Of a stretch of 64,000 bases of DNA, positions 311-63,300 are shown piece after piece. The DNA lies in NCBI GenBank assembly GCA_026745465.1, contig JACYXH010000137.1, positions 509,501 through 573,500 on the forward strand. The letters run 5' to 3'. Made by a program: the position numbers and the translations under genes. The notes beneath the pieces are model-generated. The model saw nothing but the letters and a program-made list of their open reading frames with translations. It was not told the DNA's origin and did no database searches. The DNA is from Lota lota. Its lineage: Eukaryota > Chordata > Actinopteri > Gadiformes > Lotidae. Numbering within the stretch: the first letter of the stretch is position 1; each line of letters opens with the position of its first letter.

Positions 311-7056
<6,746 letters not shown>

Positions 7057-15974: not shown

Positions 15975-17180
15975 ATGTTGCCTTCGCCGTACCTTCTCGC
16001 CCGATCTGTCAAACTGGTGCCAGGCTTGAATTGGAGGCGAGGTAATATATTCAGTGTTTCATACATAGATCACTTCATCGCAACATTACTTTTGCTCACC
16101 ATGTGACATCACATCAGTTATAATTTATGTTAGGCCTATGGTTGTGTCTGACACAACTATGCATACTTTTTTTGTGATCAGCAGACGCTTCATAATGTCT
16201 TGGAACCTATACAGGCTATTATTCACTCACTGTTACAACTTACTATTTTTGAGAGTTTCAACTTTGTGTTTCACTTTCTGTAGGGTGTCTCTGGTGCGCA
16301 TGCAGGAACATTTCAGTGAAACCAGGAGGTTTGAAACCCAAACAGTATCCTCCTCGGTACCTGGGCCAGCCGAGTCCATTCACCCATCCACACCTCATTA
16401 AATACGGTGAGTTGAGACACACAGCATAGCTCTTGCAAAGGGATCTTGCAGGCTCTTGCATTAGCAAAGTACTTAACGTTGGTATCATGTGATGTGTAGT
16501 CATATCATTTTATATTTCATTAAGTGCTCTATCAATTTGCTTTTTGAATAGCCCCCTGCCGTTTATCCAGTTATGTTCTGTATACAACCCTAACCGAGCC
16601 TAGCATATCGCTTTGGATAAAAGCATCCGCCAACTAACTAAATGTAACGGAAGTCCACATCAGGGCTACAAATGGGCTTCCACAGTGCAAATGCACTGTG
16701 AAGGTGTCTGGGTTGTTGATCTTTGATGTTTATGCAATAATGTTTGTGATACACACGACTGTTCTGGTCTGTTCTGTTCTGTTCTGTTCTGTTCTGGTTC
16801 TCTCCCACAGCATCCAGACATCCTAGCTAGTAACATTTGGCTCATGGAAGTGAACTCCAGCCTAGCTGTTACCTAGCAGCCTAACTGCCCACTCCAAAGT
16901 GGAGGGAGGGAACACTGCAGGGTTGTTCGGGAATATGGATTCATATATTTTATTGATAAGCATGGGAAATGCAACACAATATCGAATAAGTCGTCCACTG
17001 ATATAAACCCCAGCCTAAACAATCCAACTGGGGTTCATTACAGTGCAGTAAACACTCGATACAATTAGACTGCATAGAGTCTTGTGACTGAACAAAATCG
17101 TAATTACATTAGGAAAGAAAATCATACAGATTCCTCCCATGGCTTAAATTACAACCTTGCCCCAAAAAATGTATAACTCA

Positions 17181-17220
<40 letters not shown>

Positions 17221-17256
17221 ATATCTATATATATGTGTGTGTGTGTGTGTTTATAA

Positions 17257-17310
<54 letters not shown>

Positions 17311-20300
17311 GCGTGTGCAGGTGAGGTGACCCCTGGCTTGACGCAGGTGGAATATGAGCTGCGCCGGCACAAGCTGGCCTCCCTGGTCGAGGCCCAGGCG
17401 GAGCGGCTGGGGTCCGCCGGCCCCTCAGACTCCCACGTGGTGGTCCTGCTGTCCCACCCCACGCGCTACATGACCAATGACATCCCCTACCCCTTCCACC
17501 AGAACCAGGTGCTCGGCCCACGCGGCCTCATTCGTCATCCCCTCTTTCTTTCTGGGTCCTTCTGTCTGCTGTTCCCTCACATGATGCATTGCATTCTTGG
17601 TTTACTGGTTTCAACCATTTGTTTGGAAGTGTAGCAACAGGCATCCAAGGCCTACCTGTGTTATTAACCAATCACCCTTTATATTTTTTTGTACTGACCA
17701 ATTCCCAAATGCCTATTAGTCCGCAACTTCTCCGTTCATTTTTGATTACCAAGGGGCGTCACCAACGGGCGCAGACCAAAATACCTCTGGACGCAATTGG
17801 AGAGACCTACAACCAATCATAGCAACGAAACGTGTGACACAACAGTGGCAGCCATCTTGGTTGTTGATGAAAATGCCTCAACGGCGCTCCCATTGGGTGC
17901 TTCCTCGTATCCCACCCCGTGATAGATAAACGGTTGTGATTGGCCCAATTCGGACCAGGTCTGCTGGAGATCTGTCTGAACGGGAGGGGGGTCAGACGCA
18001 TATGCCTGAGCAAATAAAACATGAGCTCGCAGATTCGTCTGTTTCCCGGGCTAGGTAGGCGCAGAAACCAGAACAGATATTCTCACAGTGCATTTCACCA
18101 CCAGTAGCCAACGGGTGGCCTTTCTAACAAATTAATCTCAAATTATAGCTCTTAAATCGTAGCTACAGCACCTTTTAATGCCAAATGGGATCATCAACGC
18201 AATGAGGTGGATGGTATTGACCAGTTTGGACGCCTGTGTTCTGGCTACAGCACAGTACAGCCTGGCCAGTACAGGACATTCCAGTCTGGCTACAGCACAG
18301 TACAGCCTGGCCAGTACAGGACATTCCAGTCTGGCTACAGCACAGTACAGCCTGGCCAGTACAGGACATTCCAGTCTGGCTACAGCACAGTACAGCCTGG
18401 CCAGTACAGGACATTCCAGTCTGGCTACAGCACAGTACAGCCTGGCCAGTACAGGACATTCCAGTCTGGCTACAGCACAGTACAGCCTGGCCAGTACAGG
18501 ACATTCCAGTCTGGCTACAGCACAGTACAGCCTGGCCAGTACAGGACATTCCAGTCTGGCTACAGCACAGTACAGCCTGGCCAGTACAGGACATTCCAGT
18601 CTGGCTACAGCACAGCAGCCAGAATACTATGTGGCCACCAAGCCCCAGAAGCAAGAAGTACAGCTCACTTGCTTCGAACTTGATATGGTGGCTAACATGG
18701 GTACTGCATCCCAGTCCCAATAAGGACATGTTCACATGGGTGTCGTGTACAAAACCTCACCAGGGTTTGATTTTGGGGTGCCATTCATGCATGTGTCATT
18801 AACATTTAAATAATGTACATGCTTCATGTACGTACATGTTTGACCAGTATATTGCATATGGCTTTGGCGAACAGGCTCCATGAGTAGGCTGCCCTATTTG
18901 CCCCCCCTATTCAGTTCTCCATGACCAACGCATCAGAAGTTGTCCGCTTGTATGATGTGAGTTGTTACGACAGCCTGCTGGACAGCTGCTGCCACTGCAG
19001 CAGCTGCTGTAAGTGTGGAGGTTGTGCAGTAAGCCTGGATGCATCAAAGGAAATATTCTAGGCTTCCAACAGAATCAGAATCAGAGTTGCTTTTATTACA
19101 TCTTAACGTGCAAGTACGCAAGAGTAAACTTCTTAGGCTTGGACAGTCACATGGCAGCATCAATACAAGATGTTTACAAGATGTGCAAGATGTGCAAGAT
19201 GTCAAGATGTCAATACAAGATGTGGGAGATGTTTGCACAACATGATGGTGACGTGACTCGAGTGCGAGTTCTAGAGACCAACGAGTTGTACTGTGAAATG
19301 TAAAACACCTGTCTGTGCTCTGCAGGACTTCCTCTACCTCACTGGGATCCTGGAAGCGGACAGCGCCTTGGTCCTGCACGGGTCGGGGCGGCCGGACCAG
19401 GCCATCCTCTTCGTGCCCCGCAGGGACCCGGCCAGGGAGCTGTGGGACGGCGCGCGGTCCGGGAAAGACGGGGCGGCCGCGCTGACGGGCATAGAGCGGG
19501 TGCACTGCACCGAGGAGCTGGGCCTGGTGCTGCGCAGCCTGAAAGGTGTGTGGACGTTTCCACGAAAAAAACCCCCTCTTCTGAAACCTTTGAAAACGGC
19601 TTCCGGTTGTGACTGGCCGGACGTGACGCTGGTTCTTTTTTCCACACGCCGTTAGAAACGTTCCTCCATGCCGTAGTTATCCTGGTGATTGAGTTGTGTA
19701 GGCGTTGTAGTCGTCTACCGCCTTGCGTTCTGTTTGGTTCTTTCTGCCTCCACCATAAACCAGTGAGCGCAGCCCTCCTCACTGGATCGCCCTCACCGCT
19801 CACGGTGTTCACCTCTCTCACCGCGTCTCCCTCCCTCCCCACGTCCCTCCCTGTGTCTCTCGCTGGTCCCTCTCTCACCGCGTCTCCCTCCCTCCCTGTG
19901 TCTCTCGCTGGTCCCTCTCTCACCGCGTCTCCCTCCCTCCCCACGTCCCTCCCTGTGTCTCTCGCTGGTCCCTCTCTCACCGCGTCTCCCTCCCTCCCTG
20001 TGTCTCTCGCTGGTCCCTCTCTCACCGCGTCTCCCTCCCTATGGCACGTCCCTCCCTGTGTCTCTCGCTGGTCCCTCTCTCACCGCGTCTCCCTCCCTCC
20101 CCACGTCCCTCCCTGTGTCTCTCGCTGGTCCCTCTCTCACCGCGTCTCCCTCCCTCCCCACGTCCCTCCCTGTGTCTCTCGCTGGTCCCTCTCTCACCGC
20201 GTCTCCCTCCCTCCCCACGTCCCTCCCTGTGTCTCTCGCTGGTCCCTCTCTCACCGCGTCTCCCTCCCTCCCCACGTCCCTCCCCGTGTCTCTCGCTGGT

Positions 20301-23300
20301 CCCTCTCTCACCGCGTCTCCCTCCCTCCCCACGTCCCTCCCCGTGTCTCTCGCTGGTCCCTCTCTCACCGCGTCTCCCCCCCTCCCCACGTCCCTCCCTG
20401 TGTCTCTCGCTGGTCCCTCTCTCACCGCGTCTCCCTCCCTCCCCACGTCCCTCCCTGTGTCTCTCGCTGGTCCCTCTCTCACCGCGTCTCCCTCCCTATG
20501 GCACGTCCCTCCCTGTGTCTCTCGCTGGTCCCTCTCTCACCGCGTCTCCCTCCCTCCCCACGTCCCTCCCTGTGTCTCTCGCTGGTCCCTCTCTCACCGC
20601 GTCTCCCCCCCTCCCCACGTCCCTCCCTGTGTCTTTCGCTGGTCCCTCTCTCACCGCGTCTCCCCCCCTCCCCACGTCCCTCCCTGTGTCTCTCGCTGGT
20701 CCCTCTCTCACCGCGTCTCCCCCCCTCCCTGTGTCTCTCGCTGGTCCCTCTCTCACCGCGTCTCCCTCCCTCCCCGTGTCTCTCGCTGGTCCCTCTCTCA
20801 CCGCGTCTCCCCCCCTCCCCACGTCCCTCCCCAGGCTCTGTGCTTTGGTACGACGGCATCCGGCCGCCCCACCCGCAGCTCCACCAGACCCACCTGCTCC
20901 CCGTGCTGGAGGCGGGGACAGCGCCGCGTCCCGTCAGGCCGCTGACCCACTCGTTGCGGGCCCTCAAGAGCTCGGCCGAGGTGGCCCTCATGCAAGCGGC
21001 CGGTCAGATCACCGCTCAGGTACAGACGTTGGGAGTGGAACGACGGGGCCTCCCACAAGGCGGGGGCCTTTAAAACATCTTGGGCTTCAATTTTGGTTTT
21101 TAAAGCATGTCATCATTAGGATGATGTGGTTATGATGTAAGACAATGGTATGTTTTTGACTTCTTCATGACTTTGTTGTGCAGGCATTCAGGAAGACCAT
21201 GGCAATGACTCGGGGCGAGACTGACGAAGCCCTGATCTTCGCCAAGGTAGGAAATGTCATCTTCGCTTTTTTGCTTTGCTGTAATTTCTTGTTGAGAATA
21301 GTTTGTCAAAAATGCTGATTTATTTATGTTATTTAAATGCTGTGATTGTGACTTTTATGTGGGGAATTTTACGTTCCCAAGCGATGGTGGAAGAGCTGGG
21401 ATGTGTAGTACTTATATCTGGCCATTTAAGTGACAATTTGACAAATCGTGTCTTTCCAGTTTGATTTTGAGAATCGCGTCCATGGTGCCAACTTCCTGGC
21501 TTATCCACCTGTGATCGCCGGAGGGAACCGCGCCAATACCCTGCACTACATCAACAACAACCAGGTTATCAAGGTGAAGGGACAGGCCATGTCGTGGGAG
21601 CTGCACCCTTGAAACAAGCTAGGTGATCATCCCTTTGACCAAGATGATGAATACTTTTATGTTTCTCTCGTTTTTCTCGGAAGGATGGTGAGATGGTGCT
21701 TCTGGACGGAGGCTGTGAATACTTTGGCTATGTCAGCGATATCACTCGCACATGGCCAGTGAATGGCCAGTAAGTTGGGGGGGTGGGGGGAGGTTGGATA
21801 CTTACAACAGACTGTTCTTAGTTAACCTCTTTCCTCTGTGTGTGTGATGGACTGAACATTACTGAATGGACTGATTAGGGACTGAAGGATGTGAATTATA
21901 GGTGTGTAAGTATAGTGTTGTTGTGAGGAGCCAGGTGTCCTTGGAGTAAAAAGTAGTTCTTACAAACACTAGCCGTTCTTGCCATTCTGTAACTCAACCA
22001 GCACTGCTTCGCTCATAAACTGTGTGAACCTCAGGGCTGTGTACAAGACATTCAGAATTGTACTTTCTCTTTCAATTTTTCTTTCGCTTTCCCTGTATTT
22101 CACTAATTCTTTCCCCTGCTGATTCTTGATTGTGCTCTTCTTTCCTTCTTTCCTCCATTGCCTCCTTGGAAAGGTTCACTGCTGCCCAGGCGGAGCTGTA
22201 TGAGGCGGTGCTGGAGGTCCAGCTGGCCTGTCTGTCGATGTGTTCGCCAGGAGTGAGTCTGGACCACATCTACAGCTCCATGCTGGCCTTGCTGGGGAGG
22301 CAGCTGAGACGGCTGGGCATCGCCAAGGCCTCCGCCAGCGATGTTGATGTCCTGAAGGTATGTACATCAGAGCCAGGGGCGTTTCTAGGCATAGGCAACC
22401 TAGGGCGCCATCTGCAGGGGGGGAGGGGGCCAATTGTGCACCTGCTCCAATATGAACTGGTATAATTTTTTTTCTCCTTTAAGCAAGGGTAGGTCTACTG
22501 TCTAACCCCTACCTGCTCCTTTAAGCTAGTGTAGGTCTACTGTCTAACCCCTACCTGCTCCTTTAAGCTAGGGTAGGTCTACTGTCTAACCCCTACCTGC
22601 TCCTTTAAGCTAGTGTAGGTCTACTGTTTAACCCCTACCTGCTCCTTTAAGCTAGTGTAGGTATACTGTCTAACCCCTACCTGCTCCTTTAAGCTAGTGT
22701 AGGTATACTGTCTAACCCCTACCTGCTCCTTTAAGCTAGTGTAGGTCTACTGTCTAACCCCTACCTGCTCCTTTAAGCTAGTGTAGGTATACTGTCTAAC
22801 CCCTACCTGCTCCTTTAAGCTAGTGTAGGTATACTGTCTAACCCCTACCTGCTCCTTTAAGCTAGTGTAGGTCTACTGTCTAACCCCTACCTGCTCCTTT
22901 AAGCTAGTGTAGGTCTACTGTCTAACCCCTACCTGCTCCTTTAAGCTAGTGTAGGTCTACTGTCTAACCCCTACCTGCTCCTTTAAGCTAGTGTAGGTCT
23001 ACTGTCTAACCCCTACCTGCTCCTTTAAGCTAGGGTAGGTCTACTGTCTAACCCCTACCTGCTCCTTTAAGCTAGTGTAGGTCTACTGTCCAACCCCTAC
23101 CTGCTCCTTTAAGCTAGTGTAGGTCTACTGTCTAACCCCTACCTGCTCCTTTAAGCTAGTGTAGGTCTACTGTCTAACCCCTACCTGCTCCTTTAAGCTA
23201 GTGTAGGTCTACTGTCTAACCCCTACCTGCTCCTTTAAGCTAGTGTAGGTCTACTGTCTAACCCCTACCTGCTCCTTTAAGCTAGTGTAGGTCTACTGTC

Positions 23301-26300
23301 TAACCCCTACCTGCTCCTTAAAACTAGGCTAGGCGCTTTATTTTAGAAGCCTTTTTTGTCATATTTATTTAAATTTTCTTTCCATTCTGACAGAAATCAA
23401 TATATAGACAAAAAATAAGCAGTATCTGTGGCTGTGGCAGGCGTGTAATAAGCCCATCCAATTATTTCATTCAGCCAGAATGAAATGACCTACCTACCTA
23501 CCCGACCTACCTACCTGCGCGCACTCTGACCGTGCGCTCAGGGTGCAGCACCGGAGGCCTCCACTAGGCTACAGACGCGTAGTGCTAAAGCTAGCGAGCT
23601 CGTCACTTGTTTTGGGGAAGTGGCTTTGGAGGGAGGCCTGAATGTAGGGGTGGGCTATTGTAGGTTGGATACTTTGAAATCTAGCTTACTCTGGCTGGTT
23701 TCTCCAAAATGCCTACTCTAGCTTTAAGTAAAAATATGTTCTGCCTTGTAGCTGACTTAAGCTTGTGAAATGAAATCCCTGCCATAAACAGCCAGGATCC
23801 TGTCCTTGTTAATACTCTAGTCCATTATAAAGACTGTATCTTGTGTTTATCTTTAAGCCCTCGCCGATGGTGAGTGGTGAGGAAATCCCTCGTTTGGATG
23901 TTGGGTTGTTGTAACCCAACGTCCATATTTTCTTTGGAAAAGAAATGGGTGAAATGAACAAACGGAACATGCAGCTGTTTTGCTCTAACCTGGTTAGCTT
24001 TGATGTTGCTAATGAGCTCCAACTCCTCCATTTTGTTAAGCTCAAAATGCCTGTTGACATCCAAAGCTACAATGCCTCTCATTCATTCACTAAATGCACA
24101 CAACTATTTCTTGTTCTGTAGACTCCTTGAATTTTTGGTAAGGCATCTAGCAAAGTTAGTCTTACTTTGCAAATGTTCCTGTGGTATGTCTTTTACCAAT
24201 TACGTCATACATTTCATATCCTAATGCACATGTCCTCGAGGTGAACTACAAGATATTACATTATGATTGAACATTTTGTCTAAAGAAAGTTACAAGACAC
24301 TACATTCATGTTCACAATAAATCACCCCCCTTAAATACTGTCGTTCAGCCTAGTAAAACTAAGAGTCTCTAAACATTTCCAAGGTTTTTGCCTTCATGTG
24401 TTGCTTTGACCACCTAGAAACCCGTTTTCATAATTCTTATCACCCAAGATTACTTTTCACCATACTTCTATGGGGAATTTACAGACTGAATGTTTTATTT
24501 TATTCACTGTTGTATTGACCATTAGATGTTGATCTGTGGCCTCTGACCTAAACCTACCTCGCCTGGGAGTTTTTCTGTCTTGTGTGTATGGACTGGGTAA
24601 GCTGCAAAGGAACTGCCCTTCTTGGGATCAGTAAAGTTGTCTGAACTGACTTGAACTGAACATGAACCTTAAATGAACCTTAAATGAACTTCACTAAACA
24701 TTTCTACTGAACGCCAAACCTCTCTTCATGATGTGGTATTGTGGTGGAGCGCTTCAGCATATTGGTTGATAAAACCAGGATGTCAAATGCACGACACTCT
24801 GACACTTCTCTAAGACACTCCACTGATATAATGGTGTCCAGTGACCTCTTTGAAAGACACGGGCACAGCACGTGTTAATTCAAGGCAGGATTCTCTGAAA
24901 AGCCCTTTAGTACATTCAGAGTGGAGTCAAGGGGCTCCATGAGACCCTTCAGCTGAGTTCATACAGCAAGGCCATTTAAGATTAGACTTGTTACACCACT
25001 CGATTTGTCAAAGGACTTCATCAGGGCAATTTGAACATTTCACTATTATTGAGTAGCGACACCCTAACCATGAAGTATCTGGAAGAGAAGTCTTATCGCC
25101 TATCAAAATTGATTGGGTGGAGGTAATGGAAAAATAGTCTGTTGAACTTTTGCTAATTTGCATATTACAAGAGCTTGAACCTCTGGTGATCACCTGCATT
25201 CCATTGGCCGAAAATGTCTGCGTATGATTGGACGTTGTACTGTCCACGAGCTTGTCCCGTGCGCAAGTCGTCCTTTTATATTTTTTAAGTGTGTGTGTGC
25301 GTATGAGGGGTTTCACCGGGGGTCCTCTAAAAATGCTCCTCTCGTCCACAGTTCGCCCGGCACTACTGCCCCCACCACGTGGGCCATTACCTGGGCATGG
25401 ATGTCCACGACACCCCTGAGATGTCCCGATCCCGGGCCCTGCAGCCCGGGATGGCCATCACCATAGAACCAGGTACCCTGAGACACTGCCTGCTCGAATT
25501 CCCTCTTAAAGCTGACGTGGGTACGATTTGAGAGTCAAAGAGAGAGCGGAGAAAATAGCAGAGGAGGAATAATCTAAAAACACGCCCTCCCTCTCTGTTT
25601 CTCCGACCCATTGAGAAGTGTTGCATTTCACGCGCCTGTGATTGGCAGGCAAGATGGATTCCCCGAACCAATCAGGGAAGAGATGCCCCGAGTGGTCAGA
25701 AATGAGCCGGAGTGGTCTGAAATGGAAATGGTCTCATACAGAACCAGGGGCGCTCAACTCAAAACAGCTAATCTCACAGCACATTCCACTCACCAATAGC
25801 TGATGGTTAACTGTGCCATTTCTAACCAAATAAACTAAAAGAATGGCTCTTATGTCTTTCCTACAGCAGCTTAACTGCTCTTTCAGTGGGCGCAGGATAG
25901 TCTAGTAGTGGTTAGGCTGTTCCACTCCCAGGCGAAAGGTTCTGGGTTTGAAACCCACTGTCCGCAGTCTACCAGTAAGGTATTCTGGAGCAAAATGCCC
26001 AACCCACTAGCTGCTTTCACTGTAAATAAATCAATCCAAGCACATAAGTAACGACAGTAAATGTATCCAATAAAGGATGAAATACTTTACGTAAAAACCA
26101 AATACCTCATCTCTACAGGTGCCAAGACCGGCTTCCTCCTCCTCTGTGCTGAGCCTGTGTGTTATACTGTCACAGACCCTAACCTCCTCTGTGCTGAGCC
26201 TGTGTGTTATACTGTCACAGACCCTAACCTCCTCTGTGCTGAGCCTGTGTGTTATACTGTCACAGACCCTAACCTCCTCTGTGCTGAGCCTGTGTGTTAT

Positions 26301-30239: not shown

Positions 30240-59311
<29,072 letters not shown>

Positions 59312-59335
<24 letters not shown>

Positions 59336-59419
59336 GACATCATGTAGGACATCATGTAGGACATCATGTAGGACATCATGTAGGACATCATGTAGGACAT
59401 GGCGTAGGACATGGCGTAG
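59312..59419 (+). repeat. 12-bp tandem repeat spanning the ep300 stop codon
   Basis: Nine units: one GACATCATGAAG in the coding sequence, six GACATCATGTAG, two GACATGGCGTAG. The TAG of each of the last eight is in frame (59333, 59345, 59357, 59369, 59381, 59393, 59405, 59417). Confidence 0.96.
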
Positions 59420-61919: not shown

Positions 61920-62360
61920 ACCGCCACACCCCAAGTAACCAAACCTGCACCGTTTATATTCACCATCTACACCTCTGACCTCAGCTTCAACTCTGATGCC
62001 TCCTCCTCCTCCTCCTCCTCCTAATCCTCACTGAGGGGGAAGAGGAGGAGGAGGAGGAGGACAGAGGTGTGAGAGGGAGCCTCGGCCTGGGGAGAACCAT
62101 CCCCCCAGCACGACCAAGGAGCTGGTGATGGACCTCCGCGGAGCAGCAAGCCCCCCCCCCCCCCCCCACCCCCGTTACCATCTAGGGGGAGAAGGTGTAG
62201 CTGGTGGACTTGAACCGGTTCCTGGGACTGGACGGACCACACAGAGGCTCTCTGCTGGAACGGACGGAGCGGGCTGCTCTTCTCCGTAGATTCAGGTCCT
62301 GGGAGGTCTGCAGCAGGCCGCTGAAGACCTTCTACCAGGCGGTGGGAGCCGGCACCCTGT
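61920..62360 (+). mobile_element. decayed LINE reverse transcriptase fragment
   Basis: Frame pieces resemble the C-terminal part of the teleost L2/CR1-like LINE reverse transcriptase. PLLF-TIY-D-like sequence (FIFTIYTSDLSFNSDA) occurs at about 61953, and the thumb-region motif ALLRRFRSWEVCSRPLKTFY is encoded at about 62272-62331. The two pieces lie in different frames, separated by a CTC/GAG-rich insertion and a poly-C run (62152-62168). It is non-functional. Confidence 0.55.
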
Positions 62361-62560
62361 CCTCTGCTGTGGTGGGTTATGGGGGGGGGCACCCTGTCCT
62401 CTGCTGTGGTGGGTTATGGGGGGGGGGCACCCTGTCCTCTGCTGTGGTGGGTTATGGGGGGGGGCACCCTGTCCTCTGCTGTGGTGGGTTATGGGGGGGG
62501 GGCACCCTGTCCTCTGCTGTGGTGGGTTATGGGGGGGGGCACCCTGTCCTCTGCTGTGGT
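62355..62560 (+). repeat. minisatellite grown from the LINE fragment end
   Basis: About five units of 35-37 bp with CACCCTGTCCTCTGCTGTGG, GGGTTATG and a G-run of 7-9 follow the LINE piece without a gap. The first unit continues its reading frame, so the repeat appears to have amplified from the element's own sequence. Confidence 0.85.
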
Positions 62561-63300
62561 TGGTCCATATATTCTTAATCAATTTATACTTCATACTTAC
62601 CTAGCAGGACACTTCAATACCCCCCACCCCCCAACTGGATTCCTGATCACTTGACACTTTTGTAAGTATAAATACTAAATAATAAATGTGAATTTTGTAC
62701 ACCCAGTTTTTTTACACAACAAAAATGGACAAACACGTGTTTATTTGTTTATTGTTTAGTATTACGAAATATTTTTTGTATTTGTCTTTTTTGTATTCTG
62801 TTTATTTTTAGGTTGGCTCTATTTTGTCTCTCATCTCTATTTTGGCTGTCTTACTTCTCTGTGCCGTTACACCCACATTTCCTCCCCTGGGGATTGGTCT
62901 CTTATCTTGTAGGCCAACACAGTCCATCCAGTCATCTTGGGTTCCTCGTATTTAGTTCTCGTTTATTTTTTGTTGTTTCTTGAGTCTCTCTAAGCTCTTT
63001 TGAGGATTTGAACATTCGGTTTTGGGTCACTAAACTGTCCTGCTTATACGATACAGAGACTGTAAGTGGTTTATATTTATAACATCTGACCACTCTTACA
63101 GTCTCTGTACGATAGAGACTGTAAGAGTTCGTTTTAGAGTTAGATGTTTGACATATGTTTGACTTGTTGACTTCATTACGATTGGTCAAGTGTTTTGTTG
63201 TTGCCTTTCAGACAGGCAATTGAAAAATAGTGGTTAGTATTTACTGTATTTGTGTTATAAGAAACATCTATAAACAGACATCAGGCCCAGGTAATCATGT
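62561..63300. other. intergenic sequence with one hairpin
   Basis: AT-rich, without genes. A short hairpin lies at 63053-63108 and is listed separately. Confidence 0.35.
63053..63108. repeat. imperfect hairpin
   Basis: ACAGAGACTGTAAG (63053-63066) and its reverse complement (63095-63108) form a 14-bp stem. It extends by TGGT/ACCA pairing across a 2-nt bulge, with a loop of about 18 nt. A third copy, GAGACTGTAAGAG, follows at about 63115. Confidence 0.7.

Follow-up and report, generated by a model that had tools for sequence, protein, structure and literature searches.

An AG exclusion zone, as described by Gooding et al. (2006, PMC1431707), is a stretch between the branch point or branch points of an intron and its 3' splice site that contains no AG, and under the scanning model described in the same paper the acceptor is found by a 5'-to-3' search for AG. 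Among the human cases named in the available part of that text are the zones of PTB exon 11 (381 nt) and nPTB (438 nt). Tandem repeats flush with splice sites have likewise been described: the variable number tandem repeat (VNTR) of ABCA7 intron 18 is a C-rich intronic minisatellite of 25-bp units (De Roeck et al. 2018, PMC5954066, in part), and the "mirage" minisatellites of amphioxus reach the 3' splice site, with regular splicing reported in the accessible portion of the source (PMC3087553). Here we analyze a stretch of 64,000 nt from the gadiform fish Lota lota (GCA_026745465.1, contig JACYXH010000137.1, positions 509,501 to 573,500, forward strand; hereafter the window), in which an intron of xpnpep3 ends in a minisatellite and 1060 nt upstream of the predicted acceptor are free of AG. 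The xpnpep3 case is an AG exclusion zone built by a minisatellite, a variant of the known zones. The intron end is probably the product of amplification of an A-poor, pyrimidine-rich unit, with the freedom from AG inherited from that unit and neutral for splicing.

The xpnpep3 zone differs from those in the available text of Gooding et al. in its length, in being a tandem repeat, in that its array lacks GA as well as AG, and in having an ordinary, near branch-point candidate. The ABCA7 repeat, in the part of the report at hand, starts at a donor (the first two bases of its unit are the GT), is highly variable and is tied to exon skipping, whereas the xpnpep3 array lies at an acceptor. Mirage units, in the sections of that source available, include exon sequence and in many cases AG or GT signals, whereas the xpnpep3 units are intronic and AG-free. 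With the G-quadruplex minisatellites CEB1 and CEB25 (PMC5491262, in part) the array shares G runs with one-base loops, which in xpnpep3 are sequence motifs alone. A literature search pairing AG exclusion zones with tandem repeats found no paper that joins the two, and a search combining intronic tandem repeats, splicing and teleosts found no paper on that subject. AC/GT repeats are said to occur at fish splice sites, and a minisatellite at a splice donor of an interferon-induced gene in humans and an exon-intron VNTR of CBS have reportedly been described; none of these is among the papers listed, 10 of 99 in one listing and all nine in another.

Structure of the intron end

The intron, its flanking exons and the elements of the zone are as follows.

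19326..19545, plus strand: xpnpep3 exon 5' of the intron, 220 nt, placed by spliced alignment to human XPNPEP3, protein match to 5x49
19546..20834, plus strand: xpnpep3 intron, GT-AG, 1289 nt, of which the array makes up 1019 nt (79%)
19773..20832, plus strand: AG-free zone, 1060 nt, bounded by the AG at 19771-19772 and the acceptor AG at 20833-20834
19773..19815, plus strand: non-array 5' part of the zone, 43 nt, with three CTCAC and the only GA of the zone (19785)
19816..20834, plus strand: minisatellite of 19 units (lengths 57, 45 or 58 bp), of which the final one, 39 nt, is cut by the acceptor
19816..20834, minus (template) strand: short-loop G-quadruplex motifs (four G runs, loops of 1-4) in 13 of the 19 units, a sequence motif only
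20797..20801, plus strand: best candidate branch point, CTCAC, its A (20800) standing 34 nt from the final base of the intron, putative on motif and distance
20802..20832, plus strand: acceptor pyrimidine tract, supplied by the last repeat unit
20833..20834, plus strand: predicted acceptor AG, from spliced alignment, score 4.6
20835..21019, plus strand: xpnpep3 exon 3' of the intron, 185 nt, from spliced alignment, protein match to 5x49

The initial annotation had reported that no AG occurs from 19773 to 20832 and that the first AG is the acceptor itself, and on recount these coordinates are exact. If an AG exclusion zone is defined operationally by the absence of AG for 100–150 nt or more upstream of an acceptor, the locus qualifies with 1060 nt. 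On the plus strand 21 AG-free runs reach 120 nt or more; this one is the longest, followed by runs of 462, 334, 296 and 295 nt. The zone contains 572 C (54%), 293 T (28%), 154 G (15%) and 41 A (3.9%; n = 1060). With pyrimidines at 82% and CTCAC in 19 of 19 units, the earlier picture of a pyrimidine-rich array with a CTCAC in every unit is borne out. Of its 41 A, 38 are followed by C and three by T; within the array, T follows A in a compound variant and C follows every other A. Of the 22 CTCAC in the zone, each of the 19 units has one and the 5' flank has three (those toward the 5' end of the zone stand at 19778, 19792, 19799 and 19817); the wider yTnAy pattern is found 23 times in the intron. 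The proposed "about 20 branch-point modules" stand as a count of motifs, each of them a candidate branch point.

Tandem-repeat search gives a period of 57 bp and 18.7 copies, within the range usual for a minisatellite (units of about 10–100 bp in many copies). The unit has no AG, GA or AA and carries CTCAC together with C/T runs. Nine distinct unit sequences, including the cut last one, which ends in the CAG of the acceptor, follow each other in the order ABABCAAADDEACAFEGHI; recurring orders such as AB suggest, as far as unit order can tell, that growth was partly by blocks. The units differ at three substitution sites, T to C at two and C to T at one, by a 12-bp deletion, which gives rise to four 45-bp units, and by one compound change, TATGG for TCCC, common to two units.

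The assignment to xpnpep3 rests on homology. The protein of the joined exons aligns to human XPNPEP3 (PDB 5x49) over the junction with an E-value of 1.7e-58; a PDB search with a single-exon protein gave no match. The spliced alignment and this homology across the junction confirm that the array forms the 3' splice region of an xpnpep3 exon, and the acceptor at 20833-20834, while predicted, is well-supported. On a matrix of our own, with approximate frequencies, its score ranks 34th of 50 acceptors, counting up from the weakest. The name "exon 5" given to the downstream exon holds only if there is a further first coding exon upstream, as the exon is the fourth aligned one in the present model. 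Since its 185 nt are not a multiple of three, skipping of 20835-21019 would shift the reading frame. The data represent one haplotype, and assembly of the repeat may be imperfect.

Proposed splicing and growth of the array

We propose that a C/T-rich, A-poor founder unit was amplified flush against the acceptor, each added copy extending the AG-free zone. The last unit would then act as an ordinary 3' splice site, with a branch A 34 nt upstream, a pyrimidine tract and the first AG downstream, and the other 18 units would be tolerated passengers. A distance of 34 nt is ordinary, as splice elements usually lie in the final 40 nt of the intron (Gooding et al. 2006, PMC1431707, in the available part). 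Any branch point in the array would lead, by 5'-to-3' search for AG, to the identical acceptor and mRNA; because no AG lies between the units and the exon, extra copies would leave the acceptor unchanged under the scanning model and would thus be neutral. Both the choice of branch point and the neutrality of the copies are what we infer from this arrangement.

An AG-free founder of 57 bp beside an acceptor would not be rare, since 16 of 49 other acceptors in the window have AG-free zones of at least 57 nt. From the sequence we infer that growth was by replication slippage, aided by the G-rich runs on the other strand. In yeast, the instability of CEB1 is driven by G triplets with one-base loops (PMC5491262, in the portion available). 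The same G-quadruplex motif is found 20 times in the other 63 kb (three on the plus strand, 17 on the minus strand). Of 17 C-rich quadruplex motifs elsewhere in the window, only two are found in the 100 nt preceding an acceptor, which speaks against acceptors as general seeds of such motifs. RNA folding of 20592-20840 (249 nt) gave a z-score of -2.06, with two of 200 shuffles folding equally well and a sparse centroid.

Absence of AG as a probable consequence of the unit

The initial annotation had left open whether the absence of AG follows from an AG-less founder unit or persists because splicing would be captured by any AG that arose. As a matched control we used GA, which is made up of the letters of AG in reverse order and plays no part in the choice of an acceptor. 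GA is likewise absent from the whole array, within a GA-free run of 1065 nt (19787-20851), so that upstream of the acceptor the AG-free and GA-free extents are 1060 and 1046 nt. The mutational routes are nearly equal in number, 193 single changes being able to create GA and 195 AG. AG is therefore not depleted in the array beyond a dinucleotide of like composition, in a comparison of low power. In the 57-bp consensus unit both A precede a C, and none of the three substitution sites adjoins an A; together with the absence of GA, this upholds the first of the two alternatives.

The variants themselves carry little information on the second. Ten of the 171 single changes possible per unit create AG, and only one of these is a transition, whereas about five independent variant events are visible in the array, of which three are simple substitutions, all C/T transitions. 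The probability of seeing no AG among three to six substitutions in the absence of selection is 0.70–0.89, and some 50–77 independent substitutions would be required to show depletion. Comparison of the unit variants, which had been suggested as a check, accordingly revealed no AG-creating variants among too few substitutions to give a depletion signal, and the claim that the absence is maintained by selection finds no support in the array.

The window supplies further controls. The longest interval between successive AG (1062) is only the sixth among the 16 dinucleotides, behind TC (1250), CT (1243), AA (1209), TG (1087) and GA (1067). Fifteen arrays were picked by hand from 69 tandem-repeat rows, leaving aside microsatellites and several short or coding arrays. 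Three of these, the xpnpep3 array, 62351-62564 (214 bp) and 16759-16801 (43 bp), have no AG. Two more, 47658-48799 (1142 bp) and 59311-59412, have no CT and hence no AG on the opposite strand, and the remaining ten have both dinucleotides. The array at 62351-62564, with a 37-bp unit, has no AG, GA, AA or CG and is located outside the modelled genes, about 3 kb downstream of the stop codon that closes the last long reading frame of ep300. The array at 47658-48799, with a 30-bp unit, has neither CT nor TC over its 1142 bp and lies in a predicted ep300 intron, 18 nt after the exon end at 47640; given this position, its lack of CT cannot stem from acceptor choice on the transcribed strand. The initial annotation had held that equal absence of AG in arrays far from splice sites would refute its proposal, and 62351-62564 and the untranscribed strand of 47658-48799 are such arrays. 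Together with the longer empty runs of CT, TC, AA, TG and GA, arrays free of one dinucleotide over about a kilobase are thus not unusual in the window. The length called exceptional in the initial annotation is indeed that of the longest AG-free run in the window and exceeds chance expectation for independent bases, but not that for a repeat.

Two other arrays in xpnpep3 introns were noted. One, at 22474-23327, has 20 copies of a 42-bp unit and 854 bp without GA and CG. The other, at 18240-18615, has 8.4 copies of a 45-bp unit with 100% matches and several open frames; it may be very recent, homogenised, or an assembly effect.

Avoidance of AG at acceptors in the window

To place the zone among other acceptors we surveyed 50 of 54, four (32656, 36971, 42696 and 12086) being dropped as likely low-complexity artefacts. 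AG-specific avoidance is short range and is not seen in the longest zones. The three longest acceptor AG zones, of 1060, 334 and 296 nt, have GA zones of 1046, 345 and 219 nt, and all three are mostly tandem C/T-rich repeats. Among runs of at least 120 nt, nine of 21 AG-free and nine of 24 GA-free runs cover the 5' flank of an acceptor, so the long runs can be put down to richness in pyrimidines and not to avoidance of AG. For these run counts the acceptors 2294, 4410 and 6723 of a leucine-rich-repeat gene were placed by eye, and C/T arrays adjoin two of the three. A looser rule, counting runs that end at an acceptor, gave nine of 21 for AG and three of 24 for GA; it was dropped as evidence of AG avoidance, because an AG-free run necessarily ends at an AG. 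At 46943-46947 a predicted ep300 acceptor has two AG three bases apart (ctagcag) after an AG-free stretch of 295 nt.

Several observations weigh against inheritance and neutrality. Over the 50 acceptors the median AG-free zone is 44 nt and the median GA-free zone 27 nt (Wilcoxon p = 8e-5), while the next upstream AG interval has a median of 14 nt (paired test against the AG-free zone, p = 1e-4). Zones of at least 100 nt number eight for AG, five for GA and three for the next interval. Such short-range avoidance at acceptors means that the array, too, could be under selection. The 43 nt of flank that precede the array contain no AG but one GA. Of the 195 changes that could create an AG in the array, 60 would score within 1 bit of the true acceptor or better, and 39 of those 60 have the A of a CTCAC 15–45 nt upstream; a new AG would for these reasons plausibly be harmful, and the reading frame would be preserved by only 64 of the 195. 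Finally, that the founder arose from sequence close to the acceptor is a proposal.

Alternative explanations

These points are best captured by an exclusion zone under purifying selection, in which upstream CTCAC units serve as branch points and any new AG, as a decoy acceptor, is removed. Human introns with distant branch points follow this logic, and an AG inserted upstream of alpha-tropomyosin exon 3 was used in vitro (PMC1431707, in part). Every unit of the array offers CTCAC and pyrimidine runs, the 39 changes with a well-placed branch A would be strong decoys, and AG is avoided at short range over the 50 acceptors. Selection of this kind against new AG is plausible, since a new AG may be harmful, but the array is too uniform to reveal it. 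As the explanation of the zone it is nevertheless unlikely, given that GA is absent despite equal mutational routes, that the independent variants are too few to show depletion, and that distal branch points would not be needed with a normal candidate at 34 nt. In amphioxus, moreover, acceptor-spanning arrays have AG in many units, and regular splicing is reportedly undisturbed, as told in the available part of PMC3087553.

The array might instead be a regulator, its CU- and C-rich motifs binding proteins and its copy number tuning inclusion of the next exon. PTB-type proteins and those of the PCBP/hnRNP K type prefer CU-rich and C-rich motifs, and the array holds 19 CTCTCT and 46 CCCTCCC. A precedent is the C-rich VNTR of ABCA7 intron 18, which starts at the donor and in which repeat length and skipping of the following exon are correlated (PMC5954066, in the part consulted). 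A regulatory role for the xpnpep3 array is, however, quite improbable: CTCTCT is also common outside it (270 in the rest of the window), and with a frame-shifting exon of 185 nt any regulation would be on/off.

That the unit, as in the amphioxus mirages, duplicates an intron-exon boundary and its copies lost the acceptor AG can be dismissed almost entirely. The array does adjoin the acceptor directly, and short words following CCCTCCC resemble the exon start, but this resemblance is at chance (p = 0.42 on shuffling, and 0.21 in comparison with random 23-mers taken from the window), at least eight of 54 compared acceptors score higher, and the unit thus gives no sign of spanning the boundary.

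Arrays at other splice sites and gene context

Amplification of an A-poor unit, neutral for splicing, remains our preferred account of the xpnpep3 array, which may belong to a wider pattern of acceptor-adjoining C/T arrays. Two C/T dinucleotide-type arrays on the sense strand of ep300 end close to predicted exons, 44036-44190 at 17 nt (AG-free zone 296 nt) and 52749-52969 at 3 nt (AG-free zone 334 nt). In the leucine-rich-repeat gene, by eye, the C/T arrays 4240-4405 and 6609-6716 seem to abut acceptors, and 2138-2219 ends 74 nt before an exon. For five of the six listed C/T arrays the distance from the array end to an acceptor is at most 25 nt (binomial p = 1.5e-8), a value on which we do not rely, as it includes acceptors set by eye; only 19812-20831, 44036-44190 and 52749-52969 are cleanly counted, in independently modelled genes. 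The plus strand of the window has no uninterrupted AG/GA dinucleotide run of at least 30 nt. As to other repeats, a GT repeat at 34563-34711 begins at a predicted ep300 donor, and another, at 17183-17317, ends 3 nt before a predicted xpnpep3 exon.

We raise, as a tentative and on balance doubtful extension, that such arrays are a class that recurs across this genome: 3' splice regions rich in C and T would seed them, G-runs on the other strand would promote their growth, and splicing would filter the expandable repeats, with kilobase AG exclusion zones and many interchangeable branch points as the result. If true, one branch-point and pyrimidine module can become tens, invisible to splicing as long as they are free of AG.

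Four genes were placed in the window by tblastn with human proteins, namely rbx1, st13 (on the minus strand), xpnpep3 and ep300; human proteins also guided the spliced alignments. Judged by its genes and repeats, the window is probably of teleost origin. At the left end lies the leucine-rich-repeat gene, presumably chadl-like, a label that we take from gene order. Five of its six scanned reading frames match Pfam families of leucine-rich-repeat type or LRRCT, the LRRCT match falling slightly below the curated cut-off; among these six, the frame at 4178-4780 gave no Pfam leucine-rich-repeat match.

Implications

Taken on its own, a very long AG exclusion zone speaks neither for a distant branch point nor for selection, since a repeated A-poor unit makes one, as the GA control exposes. 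As a minisatellite-built zone, the xpnpep3 intron offers a natural test of the distance over which the spliceosome can scan for a first AG, and of whether the choice of branch point matters when every choice yields the same acceptor.

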